Assembly (NCBI GenBank): GCA_900472175.1
Contig: UCHD01000009.1
Span: 62,001-126,000 of the forward strand
Length of the DNA stretch: 64,000 nt
DNA from: Hyphomicrobiales bacterium
GTDB lineage: Bacteria; Pseudomonadota; Alphaproteobacteria; Rhizobiales; Rhizobiaceae
Direction of reading: 5' to 3'
Shown: piece after piece, positions 49,431 to 64,000 of the stretch
How positions within the stretch are numbered: position 1 is the first letter of the stretch
Layout of the letters: each line of letters starts with the position of its first letter
The notes under the pieces: model-generated
Database searches by the model: none
Told to the model about the DNA's origin: nothing
What the model saw: the letters and a program-made list of their open reading frames with translations, nothing else
Program-made: the position numbers and the translations under genes

Positions 49431-50534
49431 TCAGCCGGCCATTTTGTCGGCATAGGCGCGCTGTTCGTAGTGATGACCGAAGCGGCTCTTCAAGAAGGCG
49501 TCGAGGCCGATTTCTTCCTGGCGGATGAAGCCCTTGGTGGGCAGTTCGCCCTTGGCCAACATGTCGAGAACAGCGCAGATGCTGGTGGCCGTGGTGATCT
49601 GGATGGCGCTCATCATGCGGCCGGCGACGACGGCGCTGTAGACCTTGTTGGCGTAGGTTTCCTGCACCAAGCGGCCTTCCTTGCGGCCGGAAACCGTGAC
49701 GAAGATGATGACGACGTCCTGCATGGTCGACGGCAGCGAGTTTTCGAAGATGTCCTTCAGGACTTCGCGGCGATGGCGCAGGCCGAGGTCGTTGAGCAGC
49801 GCCTTCATGATCGCGGCATGGCCGGGATAACGGATGGTGCGGTAGTTCAGCGTGCGGACCTTGCCCTTCAGCGTTTCGCAGAGCGTGCCGAGGCCGCCCG
49901 ATGTGTTGAAGGCTTCATAGGTGACACCGTCGAGCGAGAATTCTTCGCGCTCTTCGAGCGCCGGTACCGTGATCAGCTGGCCTTCGACGATGGCTTCGCA
50001 GGGTTCAATATATTCGTTGATGACGCCGTCGGTGCTCCAGGTCAGGTTATAGTTCAGAGCGTTGGACGGATACTGCGGCAGGGCGCCGACGCGCATGCGG
50101 ACGCTGTCGAGCGTGTCGAAGCGGCTGGCAAGGTCGTTGGCAACGATGGAGATGAAGCCCGGTGCGAGGCCGCACTGCGGAATGAAGGCGGTGTTGGCCT
50201 TTTCGGCAATTTCCTTGACCTGGCGGGTGGATTCGACGTCTTCTGTCAGGTCGAGATAGTGGACGCCGGCCTGGGAAGCGGCTTCGGCAATCGCAATCGT
50301 CAGATGGAACGGGGCAGCGCTGAGGACGGCAAACTTGCCGGTCAGCAGCTTGACCATGGCGGCGCTGTCGGAAATGTCGATTTCCGTGACCGAAATGGCG
50401 TCGTGCTTTTCGATCAGGGCGAGCTGCTCGGCGCTGCGGTCGGCCAATGTCACCTGATAATCGCCGGAATGGGCGAGAAGGCGGGCAATGGTCGAGCCGA
50501 TCTTGCCGGCGCCGATGACAACGATGTTTTTCAT
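49431..50534 (-). CDS. Saccharopine dehydrogenase family protein
   Basis: A 367-residue NAD(P)-dependent oxidoreductase. The N-terminal Rossmann motif is VIGAGKIGSTIARLL, then AAPFHLTIAIAEAA, and a central sheet domain contains ALPQYPSNALNYNLTWSTDG. The family covers lysine degradation (saccharopine or lysine 6-dehydrogenase) and polyamine synthesis (carboxynorspermidine synthase). Lysine use is favoured because an Lrp/AsnC regulator gene is divergent, but this is inference. I start at ATG 50534 (MKNIVVIGAGK), with TAAG just upstream. Confidence 0.87.
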   Translation of the reverse strand: MKNIVVIGAGKIGSTIARLLAHSGDYQVTLADRSAEQLALIEKHDAISVTEIDISDSAAMVKLLTGKFAVLSAAPFHLTIAIAEAASQAGVHYLDLTEDVESTRQVKEIAEKANTAFIPQCGLAPGFISIVANDLASRFDTLDSVRMRVGALPQYPSNALNYNLTWSTDGVINEYIEPCEAIVEGQLITVPALEEREEFSLDGVTYEAFNTSGGLGTLCETLKGKVRTLNYRTIRYPGHAAIMKALLNDLGLRHRREVLKDIFENSLPSTMQDVVIIFVTVSGRKEGRLVQETYANKVYSAVVAGRMMSAIQITTATSICAVLDMLAKGELPTKGFIRQEEIGLDAFLKSRFGHHYEQRAYADKMAG

Positions 50535-50614
50535 AGTAAGTTCCCCGAATGAGTCTGTCTGTGGCGTCATTGTCCGCTTTCCGATGGTTGATATGAAGCG
50601 CTGATCTGATAAAA

Positions 50615-50644
50615 ATGCCGATCAATAATCGGCATAATGCCGAT
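50615..50644. promoter_or_regulatory. Probable Lrp/AsnC operator: three repeated half-sites
   Basis: ATGCCGAT (50615-50622), CAATA, ATCGGCAT (50628-50635) is a perfect 8-bp inverted repeat. A third copy, ATGCCGAT, follows at 50637-50644. It lies in the 123-base gap between the dehydrogenase and the regulator genes, so could control both. Confidence 0.65.
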
Positions 50645-50657
50645 ATGGATGATCGAT

Positions 50658-51089
50658 ATGACGTTAGCGGATAAAGACCGGCAGCTTCTGGCCATTCTCA
50701 GCGAAAATGCCCGCATGCCGACGGCGCTTCTGGCGCGGAAACTCGGTCTTTCACGCACCACGGTACAGGCAAAGCTCGAGCGGCTGGAGCGGGATGGCAT
50801 CATTGCCGGTTATGGCGTGCGCTTGTCGGATGATTTTGAAAAAGGACTGGTCAAGGCGCATGTGCTGATCACGCTTGCCGCCAAGGCGCTGGGTCGGGTG
50901 ACGCAGGACCTGCACGATATCGAGGATGTGCGCACGCTGCATTCGGTCAGCGGCAGTTTCGACCTGATCGCCATCGTGGCTGCGTCATCGATCAGCGAGC
51001 TGGATCTGGTGATCGACCGGATCGGCGAGATCGACGGGGTGGAAAAGACGCTGTCGTCGATTATTCTGTCGACGCGGATCAACCGGTAG
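50658..51089 (+). CDS. Lrp/AsnC family transcriptional regulator
   Basis: A 143-residue regulator with an N-terminal winged helix-turn-helix (about residues 3-52, including ARKLGLSRTTVQAKLERLE) and a C-terminal RAM ligand-binding domain (about 65-140). Effectors of the family are amino acids such as lysine or leucine. I start at ATG 50658 (MTLADKDRQLL), because ATG 50637 would place the operator half-site inside the gene; ATG 50649 is also in frame. It probably controls itself and the divergent saccharopine-dehydrogenase-like gene. Confidence 0.9.
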   Translation: MTLADKDRQLLAILSENARMPTALLARKLGLSRTTVQAKLERLERDGIIAGYGVRLSDDFEKGLVKAHVLITLAAKALGRVTQDLHDIEDVRTLHSVSGSFDLIAIVAASSISELDLVIDRIGEIDGVEKTLSSIILSTRINR

Positions 51090-51246: not shown

Positions 51247-52899
51247 TTACCCGAACAATGCCATGCTGGCTCGTAGCGTCACCCAGATGCCCCACAGCAT
51301 CGGAATGCCGACGATGGCCCAGGCGAACAGGGCTGTCCCGTCGAGACCGCCAGTGCCAATGCCGAAGGAACCGGTCGGGCCCGCGTTTGCGGCAGCGGAT
51401 TTGGCTTGCAGGGCAGCCACTTCCTCATCCTTCATGAACCACGTGTCCGATAGTGGCCGGATCAGCGCGTTGGCGATCAGGCCCAGCGCGAGCATACCGG
51501 CAAGGATATACATCGTGCCGGTATAAAGCTCGGGTCCGGGGGCGACGCCGGCTGAAATCTGCGCTTCACGGATATAGTTGACCACGACTGGGCCGACGAT
51601 GCCTGCCGTTGCCCACGCCGTCAGCAGACGCCCGTGGATGGCACCGACGAACTGCGTACCGAAGATGTCAGCGAGGTAGGCTGGTATGGTGGCAAAGCCG
51701 CCACCATACATCGACAGGATGACGCCGAAGGCGAGCACGAACAGCGCCTTGTTGCCAAGACCGGCGAGTGTCGGGGCGAGCGCATAGAGCGCGATGCCGA
51801 GGATGAAGAAGCAGAAATAGGTGTTCTTGCGGCCGATCTTGTCCGACAGCGATGCCCAGAAGAAGCGGCCGCCGATGTTGAACAGGGAGAGCAGCCCGGT
51901 AAAGCCCGCCGCGATGGCGGCGATCGATGCCTTCTGCGTGGTATCGAGGTCGGCAAAGGCGACATCCGGCAGGCCAATCAGCGACCCGGCAAAGATTTCC
52001 TGCAGCATCGGCGATGCCATGCCGATCACACCGATGCCGGCCGAGACATTCAGGCAGAGGACTGCCCAGATCAGCCAGAACTGTTTTGTCTTGTGGGCGT
52101 CGCGCAGATGCACGTGCTTGGTGGTGATCATCGTGCTTTTGGAGGCTGGCGGTGTCCAGCCTTCCGGCCGCCAGCCTGCTGGCGGGATGCGGTACCCGAA
52201 GGCGCCACCCATCATGAAGACGAAATAGATGACCGCCATGACGACGAACGTCTGCCAGACGCCGGCCGAAACATCGGTGCGGAAGTTGGTCATCAGCAGG
52301 TTTGCAAGCGGTGCGCCGATCATGGCGCCGCCGCCAAAGCCCATGATCGCCATGCCGGTCGCCATGCCTCGCCGGTCGGGGAACCATTTGATCAGGGTGG
52401 AAACCGGCGAGATGTAACCGAGGCCAAGACCGATGCCGCCGATCACTCCGGCGCCGAGCCACATCAGCCAGAGCTGATGGGTATAGACGCCAAGTGCCGC
52501 GACAAGAATGCCGCCGCACCAGCAGCAGGCGGAGACGAAGCCTGCCTTGCGCGGACCGACGCGCTCCAGCCAGCCGCCCCAGATGGCGGCCGAGCAGCCG
52601 AGCAGCACGAAGAACAACGTATAGATCCAGCCCAGATCGGCGACGCGCCAGTTGCAGGTGGTGGTAAACAGCGCAGATGCGAGGTTCATGCTGGCGCAGG
52701 TGTCAGGCGTCGTGCCGAGCGCCTTGGACAGCGGCAACCAGAAAACGCTGAAGCCATAAGCCATGCCGATACAGAGATGGATGGCAAGCGCTGCCGGCGG
52801 TACGAGCCAGCGGTTAAAGCCCGGCTTGGCGATGATGCGCTCTCGGTCGAGAAGACCCACCGAGCCTCCGCCCACATAGGTGTCCGTTGTTGCCGTCAT
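51247..52899 (-). CDS. MFS transporter, oxalate/formate antiporter (OFA) family
   Basis: A 550-residue transporter, about 12 helices plus an extra hydrophobic segment near the C-terminus. Typical OFA features are the GMAYGFSVFWLPLSKALG helix 1, RRGMATGMAIMGFGGGAMIG near the middle of the first half, and GGRFFWASLSDKIGRKN in the loop between helices 8 and 9. Family members carry oxalate, formate or pyruvate. ATG 52899 has GGAGGAC well placed; the frame upstream to 53055 is not coding-like. It is transcribed from a sigma-54 promoter at 53029-53044 and is adjacent to a two-component system. Confidence 0.9.
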   Translation of the reverse strand: MTATTDTYVGGGSVGLLDRERIIAKPGFNRWLVPPAALAIHLCIGMAYGFSVFWLPLSKALGTTPDTCASMNLASALFTTTCNWRVADLGWIYTLFFVLLGCSAAIWGGWLERVGPRKAGFVSACCWCGGILVAALGVYTHQLWLMWLGAGVIGGIGLGLGYISPVSTLIKWFPDRRGMATGMAIMGFGGGAMIGAPLANLLMTNFRTDVSAGVWQTFVVMAVIYFVFMMGGAFGYRIPPAGWRPEGWTPPASKSTMITTKHVHLRDAHKTKQFWLIWAVLCLNVSAGIGVIGMASPMLQEIFAGSLIGLPDVAFADLDTTQKASIAAIAAGFTGLLSLFNIGGRFFWASLSDKIGRKNTYFCFFILGIALYALAPTLAGLGNKALFVLAFGVILSMYGGGFATIPAYLADIFGTQFVGAIHGRLLTAWATAGIVGPVVVNYIREAQISAGVAPGPELYTGTMYILAGMLALGLIANALIRPLSDTWFMKDEEVAALQAKSAAANAGPTGSFGIGTGGLDGTALFAWAIVGIPMLWGIWVTLRASMALFG

Positions 52900-53028: not shown

Positions 53029-53044
53029 AGCAATCGGTGTGCCA
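53029..53044 (-). promoter_or_regulatory. Sigma-54 promoter of the OFA transporter gene
   Basis: On the minus strand the sequence is TGGCAC, five bases, TTGCT, an exact match to the -24/-12 consensus TGGCAC-N5-TTGCW. It lies 130 bases upstream of the transporter ATG and points toward it. Transcription would start about 12 bases past the TTGC element, near 53017. Confidence 0.85.
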
Positions 53045-53095
53045 AATCGGCTCATTCATGATTTCAATGGTTTATGGGAGGAAAGCCGCCGCTGT

Positions 53096-53133
53096 CGGAC
53101 AAAATGTCCGGCAGATCATGGACATTTTGTCCG
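53096..53133. promoter_or_regulatory. Two identical palindromic upstream activating sites
   Basis: GGACAAAATGTCC at 53097-53109 and its exact reverse complement at 53120-53132 are each near-perfect palindromes (GGACA / TGTCC arms), centred 23 bases apart, about two helical turns. They lie 50-100 bases upstream of the sigma-54 element, the usual enhancer distance, and immediately after the stop of the kinase gene. The adjacent NtrC-class regulator is the likely binder. Confidence 0.75.
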
Positions 53134-53135
53134 TT

Positions 53136-55139
53136 TCAACTGGCTTCCGGCAGCCAGATGGAAAAGGTGGTTCCTTTTCCGGGGGCGCTTTGAACCGAAA
53201 TACGGCCGCCCTGGCGGGAGATCAGCCGCTGGCTGATAGAAAGGCCAAGGCCGGTTCCCTCCTGCCGTTTGGTGGTGAAGAAGGGATCGAAGATCTTGCC
53301 GATCAGCTCCGGCGTCATGCCGACGCCTGTATCGGTGATGTCTATCACGACACCGGCGCGCGCCTCGATATCCTGGTCCAGCGTGCGGATTGTCAGGAAT
53401 CCGCCCTTCGGCATGGCGTGGATGGCATTGACGATCAGGTTGATGGCAACCTGCTGCAGCTCCGTCCGGTTCATCAGAACCAGCCGGGTTGCCTTGTCGT
53501 CGCGGACAAGCTTGATGGCGGCCTTGTGCAGAAGATGCTGCACCAGCGGCAGGCAGTCGGAGATCACGTTCGATGGCGCGTGGCGCTCGACGTAACCGGC
53601 ATACTCCTCCGGCTTGGCAAATTGCAGGAGTTTGGTGACGATCTGGCTGATGCGGTGGATCTGCTCATCGATCAGCCGGAACTCGACCTTCGCTTCTTCG
53701 GCCCTTGCGCCCAGCACGCTGCGCACCACGTCGAGATTGCCCTGGATGACGGCGATTGGGTTGTTGATCTCATGAGCAACGCCGGCGGTGATCTCGCCAA
53801 TGGCGGCAAGTTTTTCCGACATGATCAGCTGCTTGGTCGTCGCCTCGATCTGGCGGTTGGCAAGCTCCAGTTCGCTGGTCCGTTCGGCCACACGATCGTT
53901 CAGTTCCTCGTTCCATTGCCGCAGTTCCCGGTCGCGCTGCTGTAGCTGGTCGAGCAGGCCGTCGAGATGCAGCGCCACGCGGCCGATCTCGTCGCTGGCG
54001 GCTTTCAGTTCGGTGCGCGCGCCCATATTGCCGCCCTCGACGCGGGTGATCGTGTCGCTCATGCGCTCCAGCGGTTTGAAGATTGCCCGTGCCCAGCGCA
54101 GGAAGATCGGCACGCTGATGGCGGTGACGACGAGAAAGGCAAGCACGATGGTCAGCAGCGTCGCGTATTTTGCCTGCCGGAAGGGCGTTTCGAGAAAACC
54201 GACATAGAGCATGCCGACGCGCTTGCCGAAACTGTCGACGATCGGTTCGTAAGCCGAGATATACCAGTCGTTGACGACGAAGGCGCTGTCGAGCCAGGTT
54301 CGGCCCTCGTCCAGAACGGCGGCGCGCACGGCAGCCGAGACGCGGGTTCCGAGCGCGCGGCGATCCTCGAACAGGCGCACATTGGTGCTGATGCGTACAT
54401 CCTCGAGAAACAGCGTCGCGGTGCCCTTGCTGCCTTCCGGCAGGCTTGCCTCACGGTAGACGAGGTCGTTGATCGTATCGATGAAAACGAGATTTTGGTT
54501 GAGCAGGGTACCGCCGACAAGGGCCGCTTTCTCGCCATTTGCCAGCGTTACGGGACTGGCGGAATGAACCACCATTCCACGCGTCTCGCTCTTCCTGTCG
54601 GTTGGCACGGCGTTTGGCGTCTCCACCAGCTCGATCTGGGCGCGTGCAGCCAGTGCGGGGGACAGGGCTGACAGTTGTTCATTGGAGAAAATGTCGATGG
54701 CGGTCGAGGATATTCCGCGAAGCGCAGTGGCCACCACCGGCCATGCACCAGACGGTTGTCCGGCTGTGTTTACGGGTTGGCCTTGCCGATCCACCAGCAT
54801 CAGAAAATCGAGCCCGAGTTTCGCGCGGCTTCTCTCAAGGAATGCTGGCAAGCGCGGCATCTCGCTGGAGCCGACAGTGTCGCGAAACGCGGCGGAAACG
54901 GCCAGCGCCTGGATATGCTCGCCGGTGTTTTCGAGAATGCGGGAGAGATACTGATGGGCTATGGTCAGGTCGCCGTTGACCTTGGTGATCAGCAGAGCAT
55001 CGAACTTGGCGTTCCAGCGGGCAATGGCGATGCCGAGCAGGAGCGGCAGGATGACCAGCGTCGGCAGCAGCGCAATGGCCAGAAGCCGGAAGCGGATGGA
55101 GCGGGCAGGACGCTCCTGCGGGCGGGAGGCCTCAGCCAT
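53136..55139 (-). CDS. Sensor histidine kinase with periplasmic dCache-like domain
   Basis: A 667-residue membrane kinase. Helix 1 spans about residues 17-40, a periplasmic double-Cache-like sensor about 42-320, helix 2 about 325-347, HAMP about 348-400, and a coiled coil about 395-440. In HisKA, phosphorylated His456 is in AGVAHEINNPIAVIQGN. The ATPase domain has NAIHAMPKG and DTGVGMTPELIG plus GTGLGLS. This build is like DctB/MctS kinases that sense small carboxylates. The ATG at 55139 overlaps the end of the regulator gene by eight bases. Confidence 0.92.
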   Translation of the reverse strand: MAEASRPQERPARSIRFRLLAIALLPTLVILPLLLGIAIARWNAKFDALLITKVNGDLTIAHQYLSRILENTGEHIQALAVSAAFRDTVGSSEMPRLPAFLERSRAKLGLDFLMLVDRQGQPVNTAGQPSGAWPVVATALRGISSTAIDIFSNEQLSALSPALAARAQIELVETPNAVPTDRKSETRGMVVHSASPVTLANGEKAALVGGTLLNQNLVFIDTINDLVYREASLPEGSKGTATLFLEDVRISTNVRLFEDRRALGTRVSAAVRAAVLDEGRTWLDSAFVVNDWYISAYEPIVDSFGKRVGMLYVGFLETPFRQAKYATLLTIVLAFLVVTAISVPIFLRWARAIFKPLERMSDTITRVEGGNMGARTELKAASDEIGRVALHLDGLLDQLQQRDRELRQWNEELNDRVAERTSELELANRQIEATTKQLIMSEKLAAIGEITAGVAHEINNPIAVIQGNLDVVRSVLGARAEEAKVEFRLIDEQIHRISQIVTKLLQFAKPEEYAGYVERHAPSNVISDCLPLVQHLLHKAAIKLVRDDKATRLVLMNRTELQQVAINLIVNAIHAMPKGGFLTIRTLDQDIEARAGVVIDITDTGVGMTPELIGKIFDPFFTTKRQEGTGLGLSISQRLISRQGGRISVQSAPGKGTTFSIWLPEAS

Positions 55140-56517
55140 TCCAGACGGCACATTTGCGGTCGATGGTCTTGCGTGAAATGCCAAGGCGGCGGGCCGCTTC
55201 ATCGCGGTTGCCGCGGGTTTCCTCCAGCACTGCCAGAATATGCCGCCGTTCGATGTCGTCCAACGTCTCGCCGGCGGATTGCTGGCTGCGGCCGCCTCGA
55301 AAATCGTCGGGGAATTTTCCGAGGATCAGCGAGCGCTCGATCAGGTTGCGCAACTCGCGTACATTGCCCGGCCAGGAGTAGCGGGTGAGAGCCGCCCGCA
55401 CTGGCGCGTCGATCGTCACCTGCGGCATGCCAAGTTGCTGTGACAGTTTCAGCATGAACAGATCGGCCAGTTCCTGCACGTCATTGCCGCGCTCGCGCAG
55501 CGGCGGCAGGTAGAGCTGCATCACATTGATCCGGTAGAACAGGTCGGCGCGGAAGCGGCCCTTTTCGACCTCCTTCTGCAGATCGGCATTGGTGGCGAAG
55601 ATGAAGCGCAGATCGACCGGTACCTCGCGCTCCGAACCGACCGGCCGAACGCGGCGATCCTCGATCACGCGCAACAGCTTGCTCTGCGTGGCGAGCGGCA
55701 TTTCGCCGATTTCGTCCAAGAACAGCGTGCCGCCCTGCGCATAGGTGAACAGGCCCTCGCGATTGTTTTCAGCCCCTGTGAAAGCGCCCTTGATATGACC
55801 GAACAGCTCGGTCTCGATCATGTCGGCCGGAATGGCGGCGCAGTTGACCGGCACGAAGGGTTTTTCGGCCCGATCGGACAGAGTGTGCAACGAGCGGGCG
55901 GCGACTTCCTTGCCGGTTCCGGATTCGCCGGTCAACAATACCGAAGTCGGCAGCGGCGCGACCCGGGCGATGGTGTCGCGGACATCGCCGATCACCCGTG
56001 ATGTGCCGATCAGCCGGTCGCGCAAAAGGATATGATCGGAGGTGGATTTCAGTTCGTAACGCAGCACAAAATTCTCGCGCTGCAGCCGCATCCGGTCGAG
56101 GCAACGGGCGACGGAATTGAGGATCTGGTTGGAGCGGAATGGTTTCAGCACGAAATCGACGGCGCCGGCGCGCAAGGCCTGGATCGCGGTTTCGAGATCG
56201 GCAAAGGCGGTGATGAGGATCGCTTCGGCGAAGAAGCCGATGGCGCGCTGTTCGGCCAGCCAGTCGACGCCATTCTTGCCGGGCATGATATTGTCGAGAA
56301 TGACAACGTCGAAATGATGGGCGTCGAGCTTGCGCGAGGCCTCGTCGGTATCGGCCGCCTCCTCGATCCGCTTGCAGCGGGGGCCGAGCGTGCGGACGAG
56401 AAAATTGCGCATGCCGGGTTCGTCATCGACAATCAGGATGGAGGCCTGCGCCAGCCACGGGCCGAACTCCGGATCGCGCTCCGGCACGGGCGTCTTTCGC
56501 GCTGCCTCTCCCTGCAA
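55132..56517 (-). CDS. NtrC-family response regulator (sigma-54 activator)
   Basis: A 461-residue regulator. The receiver domain (about 25-140) has phospho-acceptor Asp75 (VVILDN), acidic DDEPG and the conserved lysine in VLKPF. The AAA+ domain has Walker A GESGTGKE and the GAFTGA loop (HIKGAFTGAENN) that contacts sigma-54. The C-terminal Fis-type helix-turn-helix is NRDEAARRLGISRKTIDRK. The start is uncertain: I choose TTG 56517 behind AGAGGGAGAGA because the receiver fold starts just after it; the open frame continues to 56700. Translationally coupled to the kinase gene. Confidence 0.92.
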   Translation of the reverse strand: MQGEAARKTPVPERDPEFGPWLAQASILIVDDEPGMRNFLVRTLGPRCKRIEEAADTDEASRKLDAHHFDVVILDNIMPGKNGVDWLAEQRAIGFFAEAILITAFADLETAIQALRAGAVDFVLKPFRSNQILNSVARCLDRMRLQRENFVLRYELKSTSDHILLRDRLIGTSRVIGDVRDTIARVAPLPTSVLLTGESGTGKEVAARSLHTLSDRAEKPFVPVNCAAIPADMIETELFGHIKGAFTGAENNREGLFTYAQGGTLFLDEIGEMPLATQSKLLRVIEDRRVRPVGSEREVPVDLRFIFATNADLQKEVEKGRFRADLFYRINVMQLYLPPLRERGNDVQELADLFMLKLSQQLGMPQVTIDAPVRAALTRYSWPGNVRELRNLIERSLILGKFPDDFRGGRSQQSAGETLDDIERRHILAVLEETRGNRDEAARRLGISRKTIDRKCAVWNG

Positions 56518-56690
56518 AAGTCTCTCCCTCTTTTGACGGGGCGACCTTAGCAAGGCTGGCGGGCAGGTACAAAGCTCTTTCGAATTTCTTTTGCCGAACA
56601 ACCGATTGGCAAGTGCCGGTTGGCCATGTTTCTTCGTTTCTTCAACTCTGGTAGATGCCCGGATTGGATGCAATGGACGAGGGCGTTTCG

Positions 56691-57296
56691 ATGAATACAC
56701 ATAAAATTCCGGATCATGATGCCTGGAGCGCCTGGCATCCGCTGGAACTGGCGGCCCGGCTGTCCGGCGTGACGAAACCCTGGTGCGTTGTCGGCGGTTG
56801 GGCGCTTGACCTGTGGCACGGCCATCAGACCCGCGACCACGACGATCTCGAATTCACCGTGCTGCGCGCGGATGTCGGGACTTTTCGCCAGGCTCTGCAA
56901 GGACTTGATTTCTACACCGCCGGAAGCGGGGTTGTGACGCCTTTGCTACAAGGTACGGAGCTGCCAGCCGATATCGTGCAAATCTGGTGCCTGGACAGCG
57001 TCGAGCGCCGCTGGCGGGTGGATATGATGATCGAGCCGGGAACGCCGCAGACTTGGGTCTGTAAACGCGATCCGCAAATTGTTGGGTCGCGCAGTGATTT
57101 CGTCCGCACGGCCGCGGACGGAATTCCCTATCTCGCCCCGGCACCAATCCTTCTTTTCAAGGCCAAATACCGGCGGGCCAAGGACGAGACGGATTTTGAA
57201 AACGCTTTGCCGAAGCTGACTGTGCCGGAGCGGGCTTGGCTGAAAGCCAGCCTTGAAAGGGTGCATCCGGGGCATGGCTGGATCGGCGTGTTATAG
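56691..57296 (+). CDS. Nucleotidyltransferase-fold protein, ANT(2'')/LinB-like
   Basis: A 201-residue protein with a minimal nucleotidyltransferase core: CVVGGWALDLWHG at residues 32-44, then DHDDLEF (about 49-55), giving the Gly-Gly and acidic metal-binding pattern. ANT(2'')-type aminoglycoside and LinB-type lincosamide adenylyltransferases share this build. Most chromosomal relatives have no proven drug substrate, so resistance should not be assumed. I choose ATG 56691 behind GAGGG; ATG 56673 is also in frame. It is divergent from the regulator gene. Confidence 0.8.
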   Translation: MNTHKIPDHDAWSAWHPLELAARLSGVTKPWCVVGGWALDLWHGHQTRDHDDLEFTVLRADVGTFRQALQGLDFYTAGSGVVTPLLQGTELPADIVQIWCLDSVERRWRVDMMIEPGTPQTWVCKRDPQIVGSRSDFVRTAADGIPYLAPAPILLFKAKYRRAKDETDFENALPKLTVPERAWLKASLERVHPGHGWIGVL

Positions 57297-57313: not shown

Positions 57314-58027
57314 CTACCGGACCTTCAGCCCCAGTTCCGCAAGCAATTGCCCTGCCTGATCACGCGAGATCGTTGCGCCCCTGAATTGTTTGGCGTTGAG
57401 CAGGCGGATACCGCCCAGATCCGCGCCGCGCAGGTCGGCGCCTTCGAAGCGGCATTCGGCGAGGTTTGCGTCGCGCAGGCTGCAATCCTGAAAGATAGCG
57501 TCGCGGAAATCGCATTTCTTCAGGTCGGCCATCTGGAAGTCGAGGCCGTTCAGGCGGGCCTTGCGAAAGGAGAGGCCGGGAAGGCGGGCATCGGCGAGGC
57601 GGGTTTCGTCGAAGGTCAGGTTGAGGGTTTTGGTTTCGGTGAGGTTGGCTCCCGTCAGCTTGCAGCGGTCAAACTGCGCGCCGGTCAGTGTCGCGCCCCT
57701 GAAATTGCTGTTGTTGAAGTCGCAGCCCTCGATCCTGCTTTCGGACAGGTCGGAGCCGGTGAAATCGGCAAAGCCGCCCTTGCAGCTTGACCAGAGGGTG
57801 TTGCTGAGTTTTGCGCCGATGAAATTCGACTGTTTGAGATTGCAGCTCTCGAACACCCAGCCGTCCAGCGCCAGGCGCGAAAGGTCTGCTTCCTCCAGGA
57901 CGCAGTCTATAAGCTTGTGCGGCAGTCCGCTTTTCGAGAGCACTTCGATTGTTGAGCGGTTAAGTTCGCGGTTCTCGATCGTATTGGCCGGTGAAATGGG
58001 GGGGGCCGGGGAGAGGGAGGGCGCCAT
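57314..58027 (-). CDS. Pentapeptide repeat protein
   Basis: A 237-residue protein. From about residue 48 onwards it reads in five-residue units of the A(D/N)LXX type (for example DANLAECRFEGADLRGADL), predicting a right-handed quadrilateral beta helix. Proteins of this type include Qnr and McbG, which mimic DNA and protect gyrase, but many others do not; the N-terminal 45 residues are not repeats. The C-terminus is a short helix, SRDQAGQLLAELGLK. It is convergent with the nucleotidyltransferase gene. Confidence 0.88.
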   Translation of the reverse strand: MAPSLSPAPPISPANTIENRELNRSTIEVLSKSGLPHKLIDCVLEEADLSRLALDGWVFESCNLKQSNFIGAKLSNTLWSSCKGGFADFTGSDLSESRIEGCDFNNSNFRGATLTGAQFDRCKLTGANLTETKTLNLTFDETRLADARLPGLSFRKARLNGLDFQMADLKKCDFRDAIFQDCSLRDANLAECRFEGADLRGADLGGIRLLNAKQFRGATISRDQAGQLLAELGLKVR

Positions 58028-58235: not shown

Positions 58236-58532
58236 TCAATCGCTGAAGCCAGCCTGCAGCATTTCGGTATCGACATGCTCGGAGGGTTCTGATGGTTTCG
58301 CCGGGCTGCCCGGCCGCTTGATAATGGCGGAGGCCGATATAACCAGCGGGTCGAAACCGGCATCGCCCTGCTCGATCAGTTCGAAGAACGCCTTGCGCAT
58401 GCGCGGTTCCCAGAACTTGTTGATATGGGTCGCGATGCCGGGAATACGCTCGGCTTCGGGCTGCGACTTGAAGAAGGTGGCGATCTGGTTGGCCATGCGG
58501 ACCAGTTTGCCATTGGTGTTATCAAGCGACAT
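58236..58532 (-). CDS. fdsD: Formate dehydrogenase delta subunit
   Basis: A 98-residue accessory subunit of the NAD-dependent molybdenum formate dehydrogenase. It shows the FdsD pattern: KLVRMANQIATFF, then IATHINKFWEPRMRKAF. In relatives it binds the complex and aids cofactor insertion. Its start overlaps the end of fdhD, so it is coupled to it. Last gene of the fds operon in this window. Confidence 0.92.
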   Translation of the reverse strand: MSLDNTNGKLVRMANQIATFFKSQPEAERIPGIATHINKFWEPRMRKAFFELIEQGDAGFDPLVISASAIIKRPGSPAKPSEPSEHVDTEMLQAGFSD

Positions 58533-59349
58533 CGGCGATGGCTCCGGATTGAATGCGGTCAGGGTGGGTGAAAATCTCGAAATCGGCGCCGCGCACCAGC
58601 GCGATCAGCGTCATGCCTGCCTCGTCCGCCGTGCGGATGGCGAGCGCCGTCGGTGCCGATATGGCGATGATGAAGGGGCTGCCGATGATGGCGGTCTTCT
58701 GCACCATCTCGACGGAGACACGGCTGGTGACGACGACGGCGCCGGTCGAGCCGGCATGTCCGGCCCGCGCCGCAGCGCCCACCAGCTTGTCCAGTGCATT
58801 GTGGCGGCCGACATCTTCGCGCACGGCGATCAGCCCCTTGCTTGGCACATAAAACCCGGCGCCATGCACGGCGCGCGTTTCGAAATGCAGCGGCTGCTGA
58901 CCGTTGAGAAGGCTAACAGCTTCGATGATCTGCTGTTCGGACAGCCGCAGCGGCGAGGCCGAGACCGAGGGTGTCTTGCGGACAGCCTGTTCGATCGATT
59001 CGATGCCGCAGAGACCGCAACCGACCGGGCCGGCCATATGGCGCCGCCGGGAGACCAGCGCGTCATTCTGCTCGTCCTTCAGGATGATCTGCAGGTCGAT
59101 GCCTTTCTCATCCGCGACGGCTTCGATCGCTTCGATCTCGGAGGGATCGGTTATGATTCCCTCGGTCAGGCTGAAGCCGACGGCGAAATCCTCGAAATCG
59201 CCGGGTGTCGCCATCATCACCGCATGGGTGGAGCCGCCATAGGACAGCGCGATCGGCGTTTCTTCGGGCACGACGCGGGAGCCTCGCGTGAGCTTACCAC
59301 TGCGATGGGCGGTTTCGGCGACGGTATGAGTGAGCTTGAACGAGGTCAT
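58522..59349 (-). CDS. fdhD: Formate dehydrogenase accessory sulfurtransferase
   Basis: Transfers sulfur to the molybdenum cofactor of formate dehydrogenase, a step needed for activity. The 275-residue protein has the CxxC loop in GPVGCGLCGIES (near residue 115), and the conserved GRHNALDKLVGA and SRVSVEMVQKT segments. The start is ATG 59349 (MTSFKLTHTVAETAH). It lies between fdsA (282 bases upstream, filled with repeats) and fdsD, which it overlaps. Confidence 0.95.
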   Translation of the reverse strand: MTSFKLTHTVAETAHRSGKLTRGSRVVPEETPIALSYGGSTHAVMMATPGDFEDFAVGFSLTEGIITDPSEIEAIEAVADEKGIDLQIILKDEQNDALVSRRRHMAGPVGCGLCGIESIEQAVRKTPSVSASPLRLSEQQIIEAVSLLNGQQPLHFETRAVHGAGFYVPSKGLIAVREDVGRHNALDKLVGAAARAGHAGSTGAVVVTSRVSVEMVQKTAIIGSPFIIAISAPTALAIRTADEAGMTLIALVRGADFEIFTHPDRIQSGAIADVA

Positions 59350-59631: not shown

Positions 59632-62511
59632 CTACTCCGCGGCCTCCAGCTTGCCGGCGATGCGGCGGGACTGGCGGGCTTGTTCGTCGTAATCCACCTG
59701 CCATTGCGACGGGCCGTTCGATGGCGAGATCTGGACCGCCGTCACCTTATACTCCGGACAGTTGGTTGCCCAGTCGGAGAAGTCGGTTGTGATGACGTTG
59801 GCCTGCGTCGTCGGGTGGTGGAAGGTGGTGTAGACGACACCGGGAGCGACGCGATCGGTGATCAGCGCCCTCAGCGTCGTATCGCCTGCGCGGCTTTGCA
59901 GCTTCACCCAATCGCCATCGCGCACGCCGCGCAGTTCGGCGTCATGCGGGTGGATTTCCAGCCGGTCTTCCTCGTGCCAGACGACGTTGTCGGTACGCCG
60001 GGTCTGGGCGCCGACATTGTACTGGCTGAGAATGCGGCCGGTGGTGAGCAGCAACGGGAAGCGCGGACCGGTCTTTTCGTCGGTGGCCACATATTCGGTG
60101 CGGATGAACTTGCCCTTGCCGCGCACGAAGCCGTTGACATGCATGATCGGCGAACCGAGCGGGGCCTTTTCGTTGCAGGGCCACTGAACGGAGCCCATCT
60201 TTTCCAGATACTCGTAGGAGACCATGGCGAAGCTCGGTGTCGTCGCGGCGATCTCGTCCATGATCTCGGATGGGTGCGTATACGTCCAGTTCAGCCCCAT
60301 GGCGTTCGCCAAATTCTGGGTGACTTCCCAATCGGCAAAGCCGTTGCGCGGGGTCATCACCTTGCGGACACGGTTGATACGGCGTTCGGCGTTGGTGAAG
60401 GTGCCATCCTTCTCGAGGAAGGTCGAGCCCGGCAGGAAGACATGGGCGTAGTTGGCGGTTTCGTTGAGGAACAGATCCTGCACCACGACGCATTCCATCG
60501 CGGCGAGGCCGGCCGAAACGTGCTTGGTGTCGGGGTCGGACTGCAGAATGTCTTCGCCCTGGATATAGATGCCCTTGAACGAACCATCGACGGCGGCGTC
60601 CAGCATGTTGGGAATGCGCAGGCCCGGCTCGTTGGAGATCTTTACACCCCAGAGCTTTTCGAAGATGTCGCGGGTCGCATCGTCTGAAACGTGCCGGTAG
60701 CCGGGCAGTTCGTGCGGGAAAGACCCCATGTCGCAGGACCCCTGGACATTGTTCTGGCCGCGCAACGGGTTCACGCCGACGCCGGGGCGGCCGATATTGC
60801 CCGTGGCCATCGCAAGATTGGCGATGCCGATGACGGTCGTTGAGCCCTGGCTGTGTTCGGTGACGCCGAGGCCGTAATAGATCGCGCCATTGCCGCCGGT
60901 GGCAAACAGGCGGGCGGCGCCACGAACTTCTTCGGCCGGAACGCCGGTGAGCGTTTCGATGGCTTCCGGGCTGTGGCGTTCTTCGGCGACGAAGCCGGCC
61001 CAATCCTCGAATTCCGACCAGTCGCAGCGTTCACGGATGAATTTTTCGTCGAACAGGCCTTCGGTGACGATGACATGGGCGAGCGCCGTGACGATGGCGA
61101 CATTGGTACCGGGACGCAGCGGCAGATGGTGCGACGCCTTGATATGCGGCGAGGAGACCATGTCGGTACGGCGCGGATCGATGACGATCAGTTTCGCTCC
61201 CTGGCGCAGACGCTTCTTCAGGCGCGAGGCAAAGACCGGGTGGCCATCGGTCGGATTGGCGCCGATGATGATGACGACATCGGTATGCTCGACCGAATCG
61301 AAATTCTGCGTGCCGGCCGACGTGCCGAAGGTGGCGCCGAGACCGTAGCCGGTCGGCGAATGGCAGACGCGGGCGCAGGTATCGACATTGTTGTTGCCGA
61401 AGCCGGAGCGGATCAGCTTCTGGACGAGATAGGTTTCCTCGTTGGTGCAGCGCGAGGAGGTAATGCCGCCGATCGATTCGCGGCCATATTGATACTGGAT
61501 GCGGCGGAATTCCGATGCCGTATGGGCAAGGGCTTCCTCCCAGCTGACTTCGCGCCAGGGGTCGCTGACCTTTTCGCGGATCATCGGGTTGAGGATGCGT
61601 TCCTTGTGAGTCGAATAGCCATAAGCGAAGCGCCCCTTGACGCAGGAATGGCCGCGATTGGCCTGGCCGTCCTTCCACGGCAACATGCGCACCAGCTCTT
61701 CGCCGCGCATTTCCGCCTTGAACGAACAGCCGACACCGCAATAGGCGCAGGTGGTGACGACGGAATGTTCCGGCTGGCCTATGGCGATGACGGATTTTTC
61801 GGTGAGCGTCGCCGTCGGGCAGGCCTGGACGCAGGCGCCGCAGGAGACGCATTCGGAGGAGAGGAAATCCTCATGCATGCCGGGCGAGACACGGCTGTCG
61901 AAGCCGCGGCATTCGATGGTCAGCGCGAACGTGCCCTGAACCTCTTCGCAGGCGCGCACGCAGCGCGAACAGACGATGCATTTTGCTGGGTCATAGGTGA
62001 AATAGGGGTTGGACTCGTCCTTCGGCATCCACTTGGCGTTGATATCGCCATTGTTGCGCGCCTTGACGTGATTATCGCCCTCATAGCCATAACGCACATC
62101 GCGCAGGCCGACCGCGCCTGCCATGTCCTGCAGTTCGCAGTCGCCATTGGCGGCACAGGTCAGACAGTCGAGCGGGTGATCGGAAATGTAGAGCTCCATC
62201 ACGCCCTTGCGGATATCCTTCAGGCGGCTCGTCTGGGTATGGACGGTGATGCCGGGCGCGACCGGTGTCGTGCAGGAGGCCGGCGTGCCGTTGCGCCCTT
62301 CGATTTCCACGAGACAGAGGCGGCAGGAGCCGAAGGCGTCAACCATATCGGTGGCGCAGAGCTTCGGCACCTGGATGCCGGCCTCCATCGAAGCGCGCAT
62401 GATTGAGGTACCTTCCGGCACGGTGATCTCGTTGCCGTCGATGGTGAGTGTCACCATCTTTTCCGAGCGGGAAGCGGGGGTACCGAAGTCGATTTCAGGA
62501 ACGAGGGGCAT
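59632..62511 (-). CDS. fdsA: NAD-dependent formate dehydrogenase alpha (catalytic) subunit
   Basis: The molybdenum-containing subunit that oxidises formate to carbon dioxide. The 959-residue protein carries an N-terminal [2Fe-2S] ferredoxin-like domain (about 18-95, CRLCLVEIEG), a NuoG-like cluster region (CLTCAANGDCELQ) and two [4Fe-4S] motifs (CIVCSRCVRACEE, CVSCGACVQACP). The molybdopterin oxidoreductase [4Fe-4S] ligands are in CAYCGVGCSF, and active-site Cys383-His384 in RVCHSPTGYG, so this is the cysteine rather than selenocysteine form. ATG 62511 gives MPLVPEIDFG. Confidence 0.97.
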   Translation of the reverse strand: MPLVPEIDFGTPASRSEKMVTLTIDGNEITVPEGTSIMRASMEAGIQVPKLCATDMVDAFGSCRLCLVEIEGRNGTPASCTTPVAPGITVHTQTSRLKDIRKGVMELYISDHPLDCLTCAANGDCELQDMAGAVGLRDVRYGYEGDNHVKARNNGDINAKWMPKDESNPYFTYDPAKCIVCSRCVRACEEVQGTFALTIECRGFDSRVSPGMHEDFLSSECVSCGACVQACPTATLTEKSVIAIGQPEHSVVTTCAYCGVGCSFKAEMRGEELVRMLPWKDGQANRGHSCVKGRFAYGYSTHKERILNPMIREKVSDPWREVSWEEALAHTASEFRRIQYQYGRESIGGITSSRCTNEETYLVQKLIRSGFGNNNVDTCARVCHSPTGYGLGATFGTSAGTQNFDSVEHTDVVIIIGANPTDGHPVFASRLKKRLRQGAKLIVIDPRRTDMVSSPHIKASHHLPLRPGTNVAIVTALAHVIVTEGLFDEKFIRERCDWSEFEDWAGFVAEERHSPEAIETLTGVPAEEVRGAARLFATGGNGAIYYGLGVTEHSQGSTTVIGIANLAMATGNIGRPGVGVNPLRGQNNVQGSCDMGSFPHELPGYRHVSDDATRDIFEKLWGVKISNEPGLRIPNMLDAAVDGSFKGIYIQGEDILQSDPDTKHVSAGLAAMECVVVQDLFLNETANYAHVFLPGSTFLEKDGTFTNAERRINRVRKVMTPRNGFADWEVTQNLANAMGLNWTYTHPSEIMDEIAATTPSFAMVSYEYLEKMGSVQWPCNEKAPLGSPIMHVNGFVRGKGKFIRTEYVATDEKTGPRFPLLLTTGRILSQYNVGAQTRRTDNVVWHEEDRLEIHPHDAELRGVRDGDWVKLQSRAGDTTLRALITDRVAPGVVYTTFHHPTTQANVITTDFSDWATNCPEYKVTAVQISPSNGPSQWQVDYDEQARQSRRIAGKLEAAE

Positions 62512-62697: not shown

Positions 62698-64000
62698 TCA
62701 TTCCGCGGCCTCCACCAATGGCACTGGGCGGAAATCGTCCGGAAAATGGTTCATCGCGCTGGTGACCGGATAGGGCGTGAAGCCGCCGAGTGCGCAGAGC
62801 GAACCGAATTTCATCGTGTTACAGAGGTCAGCGAGCAAAGCGAGGTTCTTCTCGGGTTCGATGCCCTGCGCGATCTTGTCCGCCGTTTCGACGCCGCGGG
62901 TCGAGCCGATCCGGCAAGGAGTGCATTTGCCGCAGGATTCGATGGCGCAGAATTCCATCGCAAAGCGGGCCTGTTTCAACATGTCGGCGGTATCATCGAA
63001 GACGGTGATGCCGGCATGGCCGATCAGGCCGTCCTTGGCGGCAAAGGCTTCATAGTCGAACGGCGTATCGAACAGGGCACGCGGGAAATAGGCGCCGAGC
63101 GGGCCGCCGACCTGAACCGCCTTGACCGGGCGTCCTGATGCCGTGCCGCCGCCGATCTCGTCGACGATCTGGCCAAGCGTCAGGCCGAAGGCTGCCTCGT
63201 ACAGTCCGCCATGCTTGACGTTTCCGGCGATCTGGATCGGGATCGTGCCGCGCGAGCGGCCCATGCCGAAGTCTTTATAAAAGACTGCGCCCTTGTCCAT
63301 GATGATCGGCACGGACGCGAGCGAGATGACGTTGTTGATCACGGTCGGACAGTTGAACAGCCCCTTGTGGGCAGGCAGCGGTGGCTTGGCGCGAACGATA
63401 CCACGCTTGCCTTCCAGCGAATTCAGAAGCGCCGTTTCCTCGCCGCAGACATAGGCACCCGCACCGCTGCGGATTTCGATATCGAAGGCCCGACCGGAGC
63501 CCATCACCGAAGCACCGAGAATACCGGCGCGCCGGGCGGTTTCGACAGCTTCCGTCATCGTGGCGATGGCGTGTGGATATTCCGAGCGGATATAGACGAA
63601 GCCCTTGGTAGCAAGAGTCGCGAGACCGGCGATCGCCATGCCTTCGATCAGCACGAAGGGATCGCCCTCCATGATCATCCGGTCGGCAAAGGTACCACTG
63701 TCGCCCTCGTCGGCGTTGCAGACGATGTATTTGCGGTCGCCGGCGGTATCGAGCACGGTCTTCCACTTGATGCCCGTCGGGAAACCGGCGCCGCCACGGC
63801 CGCGAAGACCGGACTCGGTGACCTGCGCCACCACATCGGCGGGCGCCATCGCCACGGCCTTGGCAAGGCCTTTCAGGCCGTCATGGGCCTTGTAGTCTTC
63901 CAGCGACAGCGGATCGACGATGCCGCAACGGGCAAAGGTCAGCCGTGTCTGATTTTTCAGGAAGGGAATGTCCTCGGTTTTCCCGAGACAGAGCGGATGA
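62698..64000 (-). CDS. fdsB: NAD-dependent formate dehydrogenase beta subunit (partial)
   Basis: The FMN/NAD-binding subunit, homologous to NuoF. The N-terminus lies beyond the right edge; 433 codons plus the stop are visible. The first residues seen read HPLCLGKTEDIPFL. Then come GLRGRGGAGFPTGIKW (NAD/FMN site), the GAYVCGEETALLNSLEGKRG loop and the [4Fe-4S] motif ESCGKCTPCRIGS. It is followed by fdsA in the same direction. The fdsG gene is expected upstream, outside the window. Confidence 0.96.
   Translation of the reverse strand, partial: HPLCLGKTEDIPFLKNQTRLTFARCGIVDPLSLEDYKAHDGLKGLAKAVAMAPADVVAQVTESGLRGRGGAGFPTGIKWKTVLDTAGDRKYIVCNADEGDSGTFADRMIMEGDPFVLIEGMAIAGLATLATKGFVYIRSEYPHAIATMTEAVETARRAGILGASVMGSGRAFDIEIRSGAGAYVCGEETALLNSLEGKRGIVRAKPPLPAHKGLFNCPTVINNVISLASVPIIMDKGAVFYKDFGMGRSRGTIPIQIAGNVKHGGLYEAAFGLTLGQIVDEIGGGTASGRPVKAVQVGGPLGAYFPRALFDTPFDYEAFAAKDGLIGHAGITVFDDTADMLKQARFAMEFCAIESCGKCTPCRIGSTRGVETADKIAQGIEPEKNLALLADLCNTMKFGSLCALGGFTPYPVTSAMNHFPDDFRPVPLVEAAE

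Follow-up and report, generated by a model that had tools for sequence, protein, structure and literature searches.

A sigma-54 promoter with twin palindromes between a Cache-sensor kinase gene and an OFA-family transporter gene: candidate control region of a formate signalling-and-uptake module in a Hyphomicrobiales bacterium

We analysed a 64,000-nucleotide stretch of DNA (the window; assembly GCA_900472175.1, contig UCHD01000009.1, positions 62,001 to 126,000 of the forward strand) from a Hyphomicrobiales bacterium of the Rhizobiaceae, a soil bacterium and kin of the root-nodule bacteria. On the minus strand of the window, genes for an NtrC-type response regulator and a Cache-domain sensor kinase are followed, after a gap of 236 bp, by the gene for an OFA-family MFS transporter, and this gap carries a sigma-54 promoter preceded by two identical palindromes (Table 1). 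Taken as a whole, the observations are best explained by the gap being the control region of a dedicated formate signalling-and-uptake module, an explanation that we consider probable though well short of certain. External formate or a close small monocarboxylate would bind the periplasmic Cache sensor of the kinase, which would phosphorylate its NtrC-type partner. Two activator dimers on the two palindromes would then assemble the AAA+ ring, and IHF would bend the DNA and bring the ring to the sigma-54 polymerase, whereupon ATP hydrolysis would open the promoter. The OFA transporter would be made and the acid imported, and the neighbouring NAD-dependent formate dehydrogenase would oxidise it.

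A sequence-only reading of this DNA had proposed a sigma-54 promoter with paired palindromic enhancers, a flanking regulator with GAFTGA, a kinase and an OFA transporter; the DNA elements were found as it described them, and the three proteins were recognised by translation and domain matches. The -24/-12 element, TGGCACACCGATTGCT, with its GG and GC 10 bp apart, was an exact match and the sole zero-mismatch match to TGGCACN5TTGCW in the window, while the 26 matches with up to two mismatches were not above the 32 expected. The palindrome GGACAAAATGTCC reads on the plus strand at 53097-53109 and on the minus strand at 53120-53132; the two copies are identical, with opposed cores (AAA vs TTT). 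Each consists of 5-bp palindromic arms and a 3-bp core, their centres are 23 bp apart, and the next best copies of the 13-mer in the window had two mismatches. There are 52 bases between the proximal palindrome and the T of TGGC. In the usual -24/-12 numbering, counted by hand, which places the transcript start at about 53018, the sites at about -85 and -108 stand near-whole helical turns apart. The genome also encodes RpoN (PF00309, 65 bits, above the cut-off), and the regulator scored below the cut-off of the AtoC equivalog model of NCBIfam (382.1 vs 714 bits). We infer from this arrangement that the regulator activates the OFA transporter promoter.

The arrangement was conserved among close relatives. 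In a set of 61 genomes (our own and 60 relatives), 17 contained the kinase at an E value of 1e-60 or better, and in the 16 gaps from the same genus or family, ours included, both palindromes were found in every case, a few with a changed end letter. The palindrome centres were 23 bp apart in 14 of these gaps and 22 bp in two, and the proximal palindrome and TGGC, measured start to start, were 65 bp apart in 15 and 66 bp in one. The seventeenth locus (L021), from another family, lacked a clear promoter and had three related sites at intervals of 41-42 bp. Three weaker sites 41-43 bp apart, rather than two, were seen in Rhodobacterales and one other lineage (L235 8863-8960, L237 8861-8959, L021 3036-3131).

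For a wider test, a kinase-alignment scan gave at least 588 relatives, of which 80 loci (L024-L103) were examined, the nearest being that of Rhizobium sp. Root1334, whose kinase is 98% identical to ours; L024-L026, from genomes already in the close-relative set, were left out of the test. Among 97 loci that were not chosen by motif, including the close relatives and three plasmid loci, the kinase was followed within 1500 bp by an OFA gene of the same strand in 82 and not in the other 15, and removal of near-duplicate gaps left 67. With up to two mismatches allowed in the 20 arm positions, both palindromes were found in 63 of the 67 (none in 43, one in 12 and two in eight), and the -24/-12 motif in 55, so that the conservation in orthologous gaps implied by the sequence-only reading was borne out. 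The centre spacing of the 63 pairs was 19-24 bp in 51 and 41-43 bp in 12, these classes having been defined after a first look at the data. In L089, two exact sites were 32 bp apart, and with this addition the pair spacings fall near two, three and four helical turns. Where both pair and promoter were present (54 gaps), the proximal palindrome stood 51-55 bases from TGGC in 49, 67 in three and 76-77 in two. When 55 gaps were picked by the promoter motif alone, a site with at most two of ten arm mismatches lay 64-68 bp upstream in 49 of them (42 exact); one of the five shifted controls of this test overlapped the distal palindrome and hence was no control. Across 45 main-class gaps, the arms had a mean pairwise identity of 0.97 and the promoter letters one of 0.96, values that are partly a matter of construction because the gaps were selected for pair and promoter; the palindrome cores reached 0.52 and 0.42, the N5 of the promoter 0.44 and the stretches between and after 0.30-0.36.

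An additional element, absent from the sequence-only reading, was found between the palindromes and the promoter. It matches YAA-N4-TTGA (TAAACCATTGA), which we take to be the core of an IHF site; bending by IHF between enhancer and promoter is usual for sigma-54 promoters. The motif was present in this place in 36 of the 54 gaps, in 35 of them 29-31 bp upstream of TGGC and in 26 at exactly 30 bp, compared with 26 occurrences in 5400 letter shuffles. The full IHF consensus was found in nine of the 54 gaps, and the core was in place in 35. Both IHF subunit genes scored above the cut-off in the genome.

No further exact copy of the 13-mer was found in the 5.46-Mb genome outside the window pair; two one-mismatch copies lay inside a 531-aa open reading frame (ORF) and a listed 118-aa ORF, and GGACAN3TGTCC occurred seven times in total vs three for the reversed control pattern. 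We rejected a larger regulon in this genome (no second exact pair was present, and the five further GGACAN3TGTCC sites were all single), regulation of the fds genes through a copy of the exact pair, which occurs nowhere else in the genome, and autoregulation of the kinase and regulator genes, as no copy with up to one mismatch was found near 56700. Of 297 genomes sampled from the family, 16 contained the exact pair, each a single time, vs 0 of 297 for the reversed-pattern control, and all 16 pairs lay between kinase and OFA transporter genes with a -24/-12 element beside them. Class-wide, it was found in five of 387 sampled genomes, four of which, ours included, had it in the kinase-to-transporter gap; the fifth (L242) was an unrelated local repeat. 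In 3700 dinucleotide shuffles of a 74-gap set, which includes the motif-fetched loci L104-L119 left out of the 67-gap counts, the promoter motif appeared 43 times and the pair never. A chance origin of the pair was rejected on these genome and shuffle counts, and in these genomes the pair looks like a one-operon switch.

The palindromes might instead be operators of another regulator, with the two-component pair acting elsewhere. Such dyads may serve unrelated regulators, as suggested by 110 viral stretches with paired GGACA-N3-TGTCC dyads (viral contigs, L124 onward), some with two or three pairs in series, which are perhaps phage repressor operators. However, the operators track the kinase/regulator pair, in five loci even where the target has changed, and they are placed and phased like sigma-54 enhancers. 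The recognition helix of the regulator is also constant: RKT[IV][DE]R[KR] was found in 79 of the 80 loci, L097 being unmatched by this expression. We give this alternative next to no credence.

The kinase sensor (residues about 61-348) matched sCache_3_3 with 98.2 bits (Pfam cut-off 28.8), the sole such match found in the genome, and in sequence and fold comparisons its module matched the domains of formate-bound chemoreceptors. R270, T273 and T286 of the kinase reproduce the R, T(+3), T(+16) spacing of PacF and are aligned in formate-bound structures; the R/T/T spacing is reported for PacF in PMC12501870, with binding in the distal module. The external carboxylate of the sequence-only reading can be narrowed to a monocarboxylate, most likely formate.

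The scores of the transporter were below the cut-offs of the SfMCT model NF049980 (308.2 vs 320 bits), the OFA subfamily model (140.1 vs 374.85) and the OxlT model TIGR04259 (119.9 vs 335). The residues Y119, N276, R280, Y331 and F335 of SfMCT, which contact carboxylate or lactate according to PMC6573034, align with Y162, N341, R345, Y398 and F402 of the transporter. W429 stands at the position of K355 in OxlT. Retention of the SfMCT carboxylate residues together with W429 at the K355 position points towards a monocarboxylate, without telling formate from lactate. The same switch could serve another monocarboxylate (L-lactate, pyruvate or glycolate), the formate dehydrogenase being a mere neighbour; this is supported by the retained contact residues, by the near miss of the SfMCT model and by a partner transporter in a Thalassospira metagenome-assembled genome (L040), 42% identical to ours, which passes that model at 324.2. 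In contrast, formate dehydrogenases of the FdsA, Bradyrhizobium and 2-hydroxyacid types recur near the switch, an NAD-dependent one is among the genes behind it in L082 and L094, and the sensor resembles formate-bound domains. We regard another monocarboxylate as unlikely, but as an alternative to be taken seriously. An oxalate/formate exchanger, with an OxlT-like transporter and oxalate as the signal, would fit the name of the OFA family, and a nearby formate dehydrogenase would use up the formate. Nevertheless, OxlT-type exchange was rejected on the model score and the missing lysine, with no search aimed at oxalate genes, and we give this alternative very little credence. In the plasmid loci, the group is annotated only as "OFA family MFS transporter".

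The gene neighbourhoods also point to formate. Among the 80 loci, 13 of which had short flanks, 42 had a formate gene in the flanking sequence retrieved, within 7 kb: one of the FdsA type (at least 60% identity) in 21, Bradyrhizobium-type formate dehydrogenase in 17, FdhD only in two and NAD-dependent formate dehydrogenase in two. In the window, the fdsB-like gene, fdsA, fdhD and fdsD lie upstream of the regulator on the same strand. A Ponticoccus plasmid is annotated with the order regulator, kinase, OFA transporter, LysR, formate dehydrogenase gamma, NuoF and formate dehydrogenase alpha; the Rhizobium, Leisingera and Shinella plasmid loci have the trio with no formate dehydrogenase in view. 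On a Sulfitobacter plasmid, a related kinase stands beside TRAP transporter genes without the trio. The system was found mainly in Alphaproteobacteria, with a few Gammaproteobacteria.

An OFA gene lay behind the kinase in 65 of the 80 loci. Five of the 15 others (L082, L084, L086, L094 and L103) keep the pair and a -24/-12-like element with a changed target. In L082, an NAD-dependent formate dehydrogenase gene comes next, its partial protein scoring 470.8 bits against a cut-off of 329, and in L094 (8998-11647 and beyond) an ORF of about 65 codons is followed by genes for an NAD-dependent formate dehydrogenase (655.3 bits), a DyP peroxidase and an encapsulin; the L103 sequence ends ahead of the target gene. 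In L084 (9085-14480) and L086 (9085-14577), both from Rhizobium, ClpB comes straight after the operators and the -24/-12 element, and genes for DyP peroxidase and a family-1 encapsulin lie beyond it; in L084, a small ORF like that of L094 lies between ClpB and DyP. We infer that the genes behind the switch in these loci form one transcript, and those of L084 and L086 are possibly a two-component-controlled encapsulin gene set in Rhizobium. ClpB/DyP genes were found in three of the 80 loci, two of them with encapsulin. At an E value of 1e-30, each of five genomes (L084, L088, L094, L044 and L075) had one copy of the sensor, so the kinase/regulator pair seems to have been re-aimed rather than duplicated. 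A kinase sensing external formate could belong to a portable formate-response cassette, in which one kinase/regulator/operator set has been re-aimed from an OFA formate transporter to an NAD-dependent formate dehydrogenase and to a ClpB/DyP-peroxidase/encapsulin set; we put this forward tentatively, as a possibility a little short of probable.

The changed targets bear on a further alternative, that the system in truth responds to acid, peroxide or protein stress, formate being one stressor. Under a stress signal, ClpB, DyP peroxidase and encapsulin would make sense as alternative targets: all three are behind the same operators in L084 and L086, and L094 combines NAD-dependent formate dehydrogenase, DyP and encapsulin. 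Enterobacterial DyP-encapsulin operons also contain NAD-dependent formate dehydrogenase, as stated in PMC10960027. On the other hand, the predominance of OFA transporter genes behind the kinase and a Cache type known for carboxylates argue against stress as the signal, and we consider it very improbable.

Several observations weigh against a formate module. The triad of the kinase is in the membrane-proximal module, whereas PacF is reported in PMC12501870 to bind formate in its distal module, and the distal module of the kinase is variable. The whole proximal module is well conserved, and therefore the invariant triad does not discriminate by itself. The triad is matched to the formate-bound structures 8py0 and 8py1 by alignment, and among the fold matches with a comparable or better Z are sensors that bind other ligands (DctB, LuxQ and PctA). 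The nearest relation of the transporter is SfMCT, an L-lactate carrier whose lactate-contact residues it keeps. No formate gene was found in the fetched flanks of 35 of the 80 loci, and 17 of the 42 formate-gene loci are all from Bradyrhizobium and not independent. The promoter motif was missing from 12 of the 67 gaps, and L085, L095 and L099 showed no recognisable pair. In nine of the 15 non-OFA loci (L053, L065, L075, L081, L090-L092, L100 and L101) no pair was found; the sequences of L065 and L101 end shortly after the kinase, and in L075 a LysR gene and genes for formate dehydrogenase come after the kinase. A ClpB/DyP/encapsulin target does not in itself point to formate. Finally, the non-OFA loci L088 and L103 carry further, looser pairs elsewhere, some with a -24/-12-like motif behind them, so a single target is not universal, and these lineages possibly have more than one. 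Such looser pairs were located at 493-528 and 10192-10227 in L088 and at 1541-1575 and 2497-2531 in L103.

The gene starts in the window required some revision. The listed start of the regulator ORF is probably too far upstream, with REC beginning near residue 86, and the kinase likely starts at 55139, since this methionine (Met22) is kept in 15 of 15 full-length alignment rows. The longest transporter ORF (start 53055) spans the promoter; because 53055 is upstream of the promoter, it was set aside for 52899 (MTATTDTYVGG after GGAGGA), the likely start, which gives a leader of about 119 nt from the predicted transcript start. The last 27 residues of the transporter (window 51247-51330) matched the small-subunit tail NF047966 with 33.5 bits (cut-off 24). 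In one relative, the kinase gene is broken into two frames (G013 contig C1: L018 and L022; also L026). A nucleotidyltransferase-like gene (PF10706, 24.2 bits) at 56655-57296 on the plus strand is divergent from the listed regulator ORF and overlaps it slightly, and a pentapeptide-repeat protein gene at 57314-58027 on the minus strand sits between the regulator and the fds genes. The transporter adjoins a saccharopine-dehydrogenase-like gene at 49431-51089, which is divergent from an AsnC/Lrp regulator and is also beside the transporter in L024-L026.

Table 1. Features of the predicted control region and linked genes (window coordinates).
Feature	Position	Strand	Details
Sigma-54 -24/-12 element, TGGCAC-N5-TTGCT	53029..53044	-	Exact match; predicted transcript start ~53018
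IHF-like element, YAA-N4-TTGA	53064..53074	-	Starts 30 bp upstream of TGGC
Promoter-proximal palindrome, GGACA-TTT-TGTCC	53097..53109	-	Centre 53103, about -85
Promoter-distal palindrome, GGACA-AAA-TGTCC	53120..53132	-	Centre 53126, about -108; 3 bp past kinase stop codon
OFA-family MFS transporter with fused C-terminal small-subunit tail	51247..52899	-	550 aa from likely start; MFS_1 122.5 bits
Sensor histidine kinase	53136..55202	-	Periplasmic dCache-like sensor, sCache_3_3 membrane-proximal module, HAMP, HisKA, HATPase
NtrC-type response regulator (REC, AAA+ with GAFTGA, Fis-type HTH)	55132..56700	-	PF00072, PF00158, PF02954; GAFTGA in translation
fdsD, formate dehydrogenase delta subunit (linked gene)	58236..58532	-	PF11390 91.6 bits
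fdhD, formate dehydrogenase accessory sulfurtransferase (linked gene)	58522..59349	-	TIGR00129 191.9 bits
fdsA, formate dehydrogenase alpha subunit (linked gene)	59632..62511	-	TIGR01591 966.5 bits
fdsB-like NuoF-type subunit (linked gene)	62698..64000	-	Runs off window; named by resemblance and Ponticoccus annotated order

NtrC-type two-component systems that control a carboxylate carrier are a known kind of architecture. The rhizobial C4-dicarboxylate system DctB/DctD-dctA shares the periplasmic Cache kinase, the NtrC-type regulator, paired upstream sites, the sigma-54 promoter and a carboxylate transporter; the system in the window differs in having an OFA-family MFS transporter instead of DctA, a sensor nearest in sequence to formate-bound sCache and another operator. 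In E. coli, YpdB controls yhjX, and YhjX belongs to the OFA family. YpdA/YpdB-YhjX likewise places an OFA-family transporter under two-component control by an external carboxylate, but with pyruvate and a LytTR regulator that is not sigma-54-dependent. FhlA is a sigma-54 activator that responds to formate, although it binds formate in the cytoplasm without a kinase and controls formate hydrogenlyase. The formate chemoreceptors PacF, McpF and Atu0526 (PMC12501870 and PMC8698456) share the Cache sensor family and, for PacF, the R/T/T spacing, and differ in their chemotaxis output and, for PacF, in the module concerned. SfMCT is the nearest solved transporter by sequence. The FDH-DyP-encapsulin operon of Enterobacteriaceae groups the same three genes as L094, and the PMC10960027 passages covered mention no two-component or sigma-54 control. 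In the literature searched (CC-licensed PMC text, titles and abstract starts), we did not find the kinase, the operator, the control of the transporter, the formate signal or the change of target, and the 13-mers as text in CC-licensed PMC returned unrelated papers only.

The formate sensors in the papers searched were chemoreceptors; FhlA is a cytoplasmic one. If our explanation is true, a two-component switch devoted to formate or a monocarboxylate, with its operator defined, would hint at what OFA transporters carry. It would also offer a formate biosensor part and a natural series for the study of enhancers spaced by whole turns of the helix. The retargeting to encapsulin and DyP genes gives a testable cue to what encapsulin compartments respond to and, if true, would place encapsulin nanocompartments under sigma-54 and two-component control.
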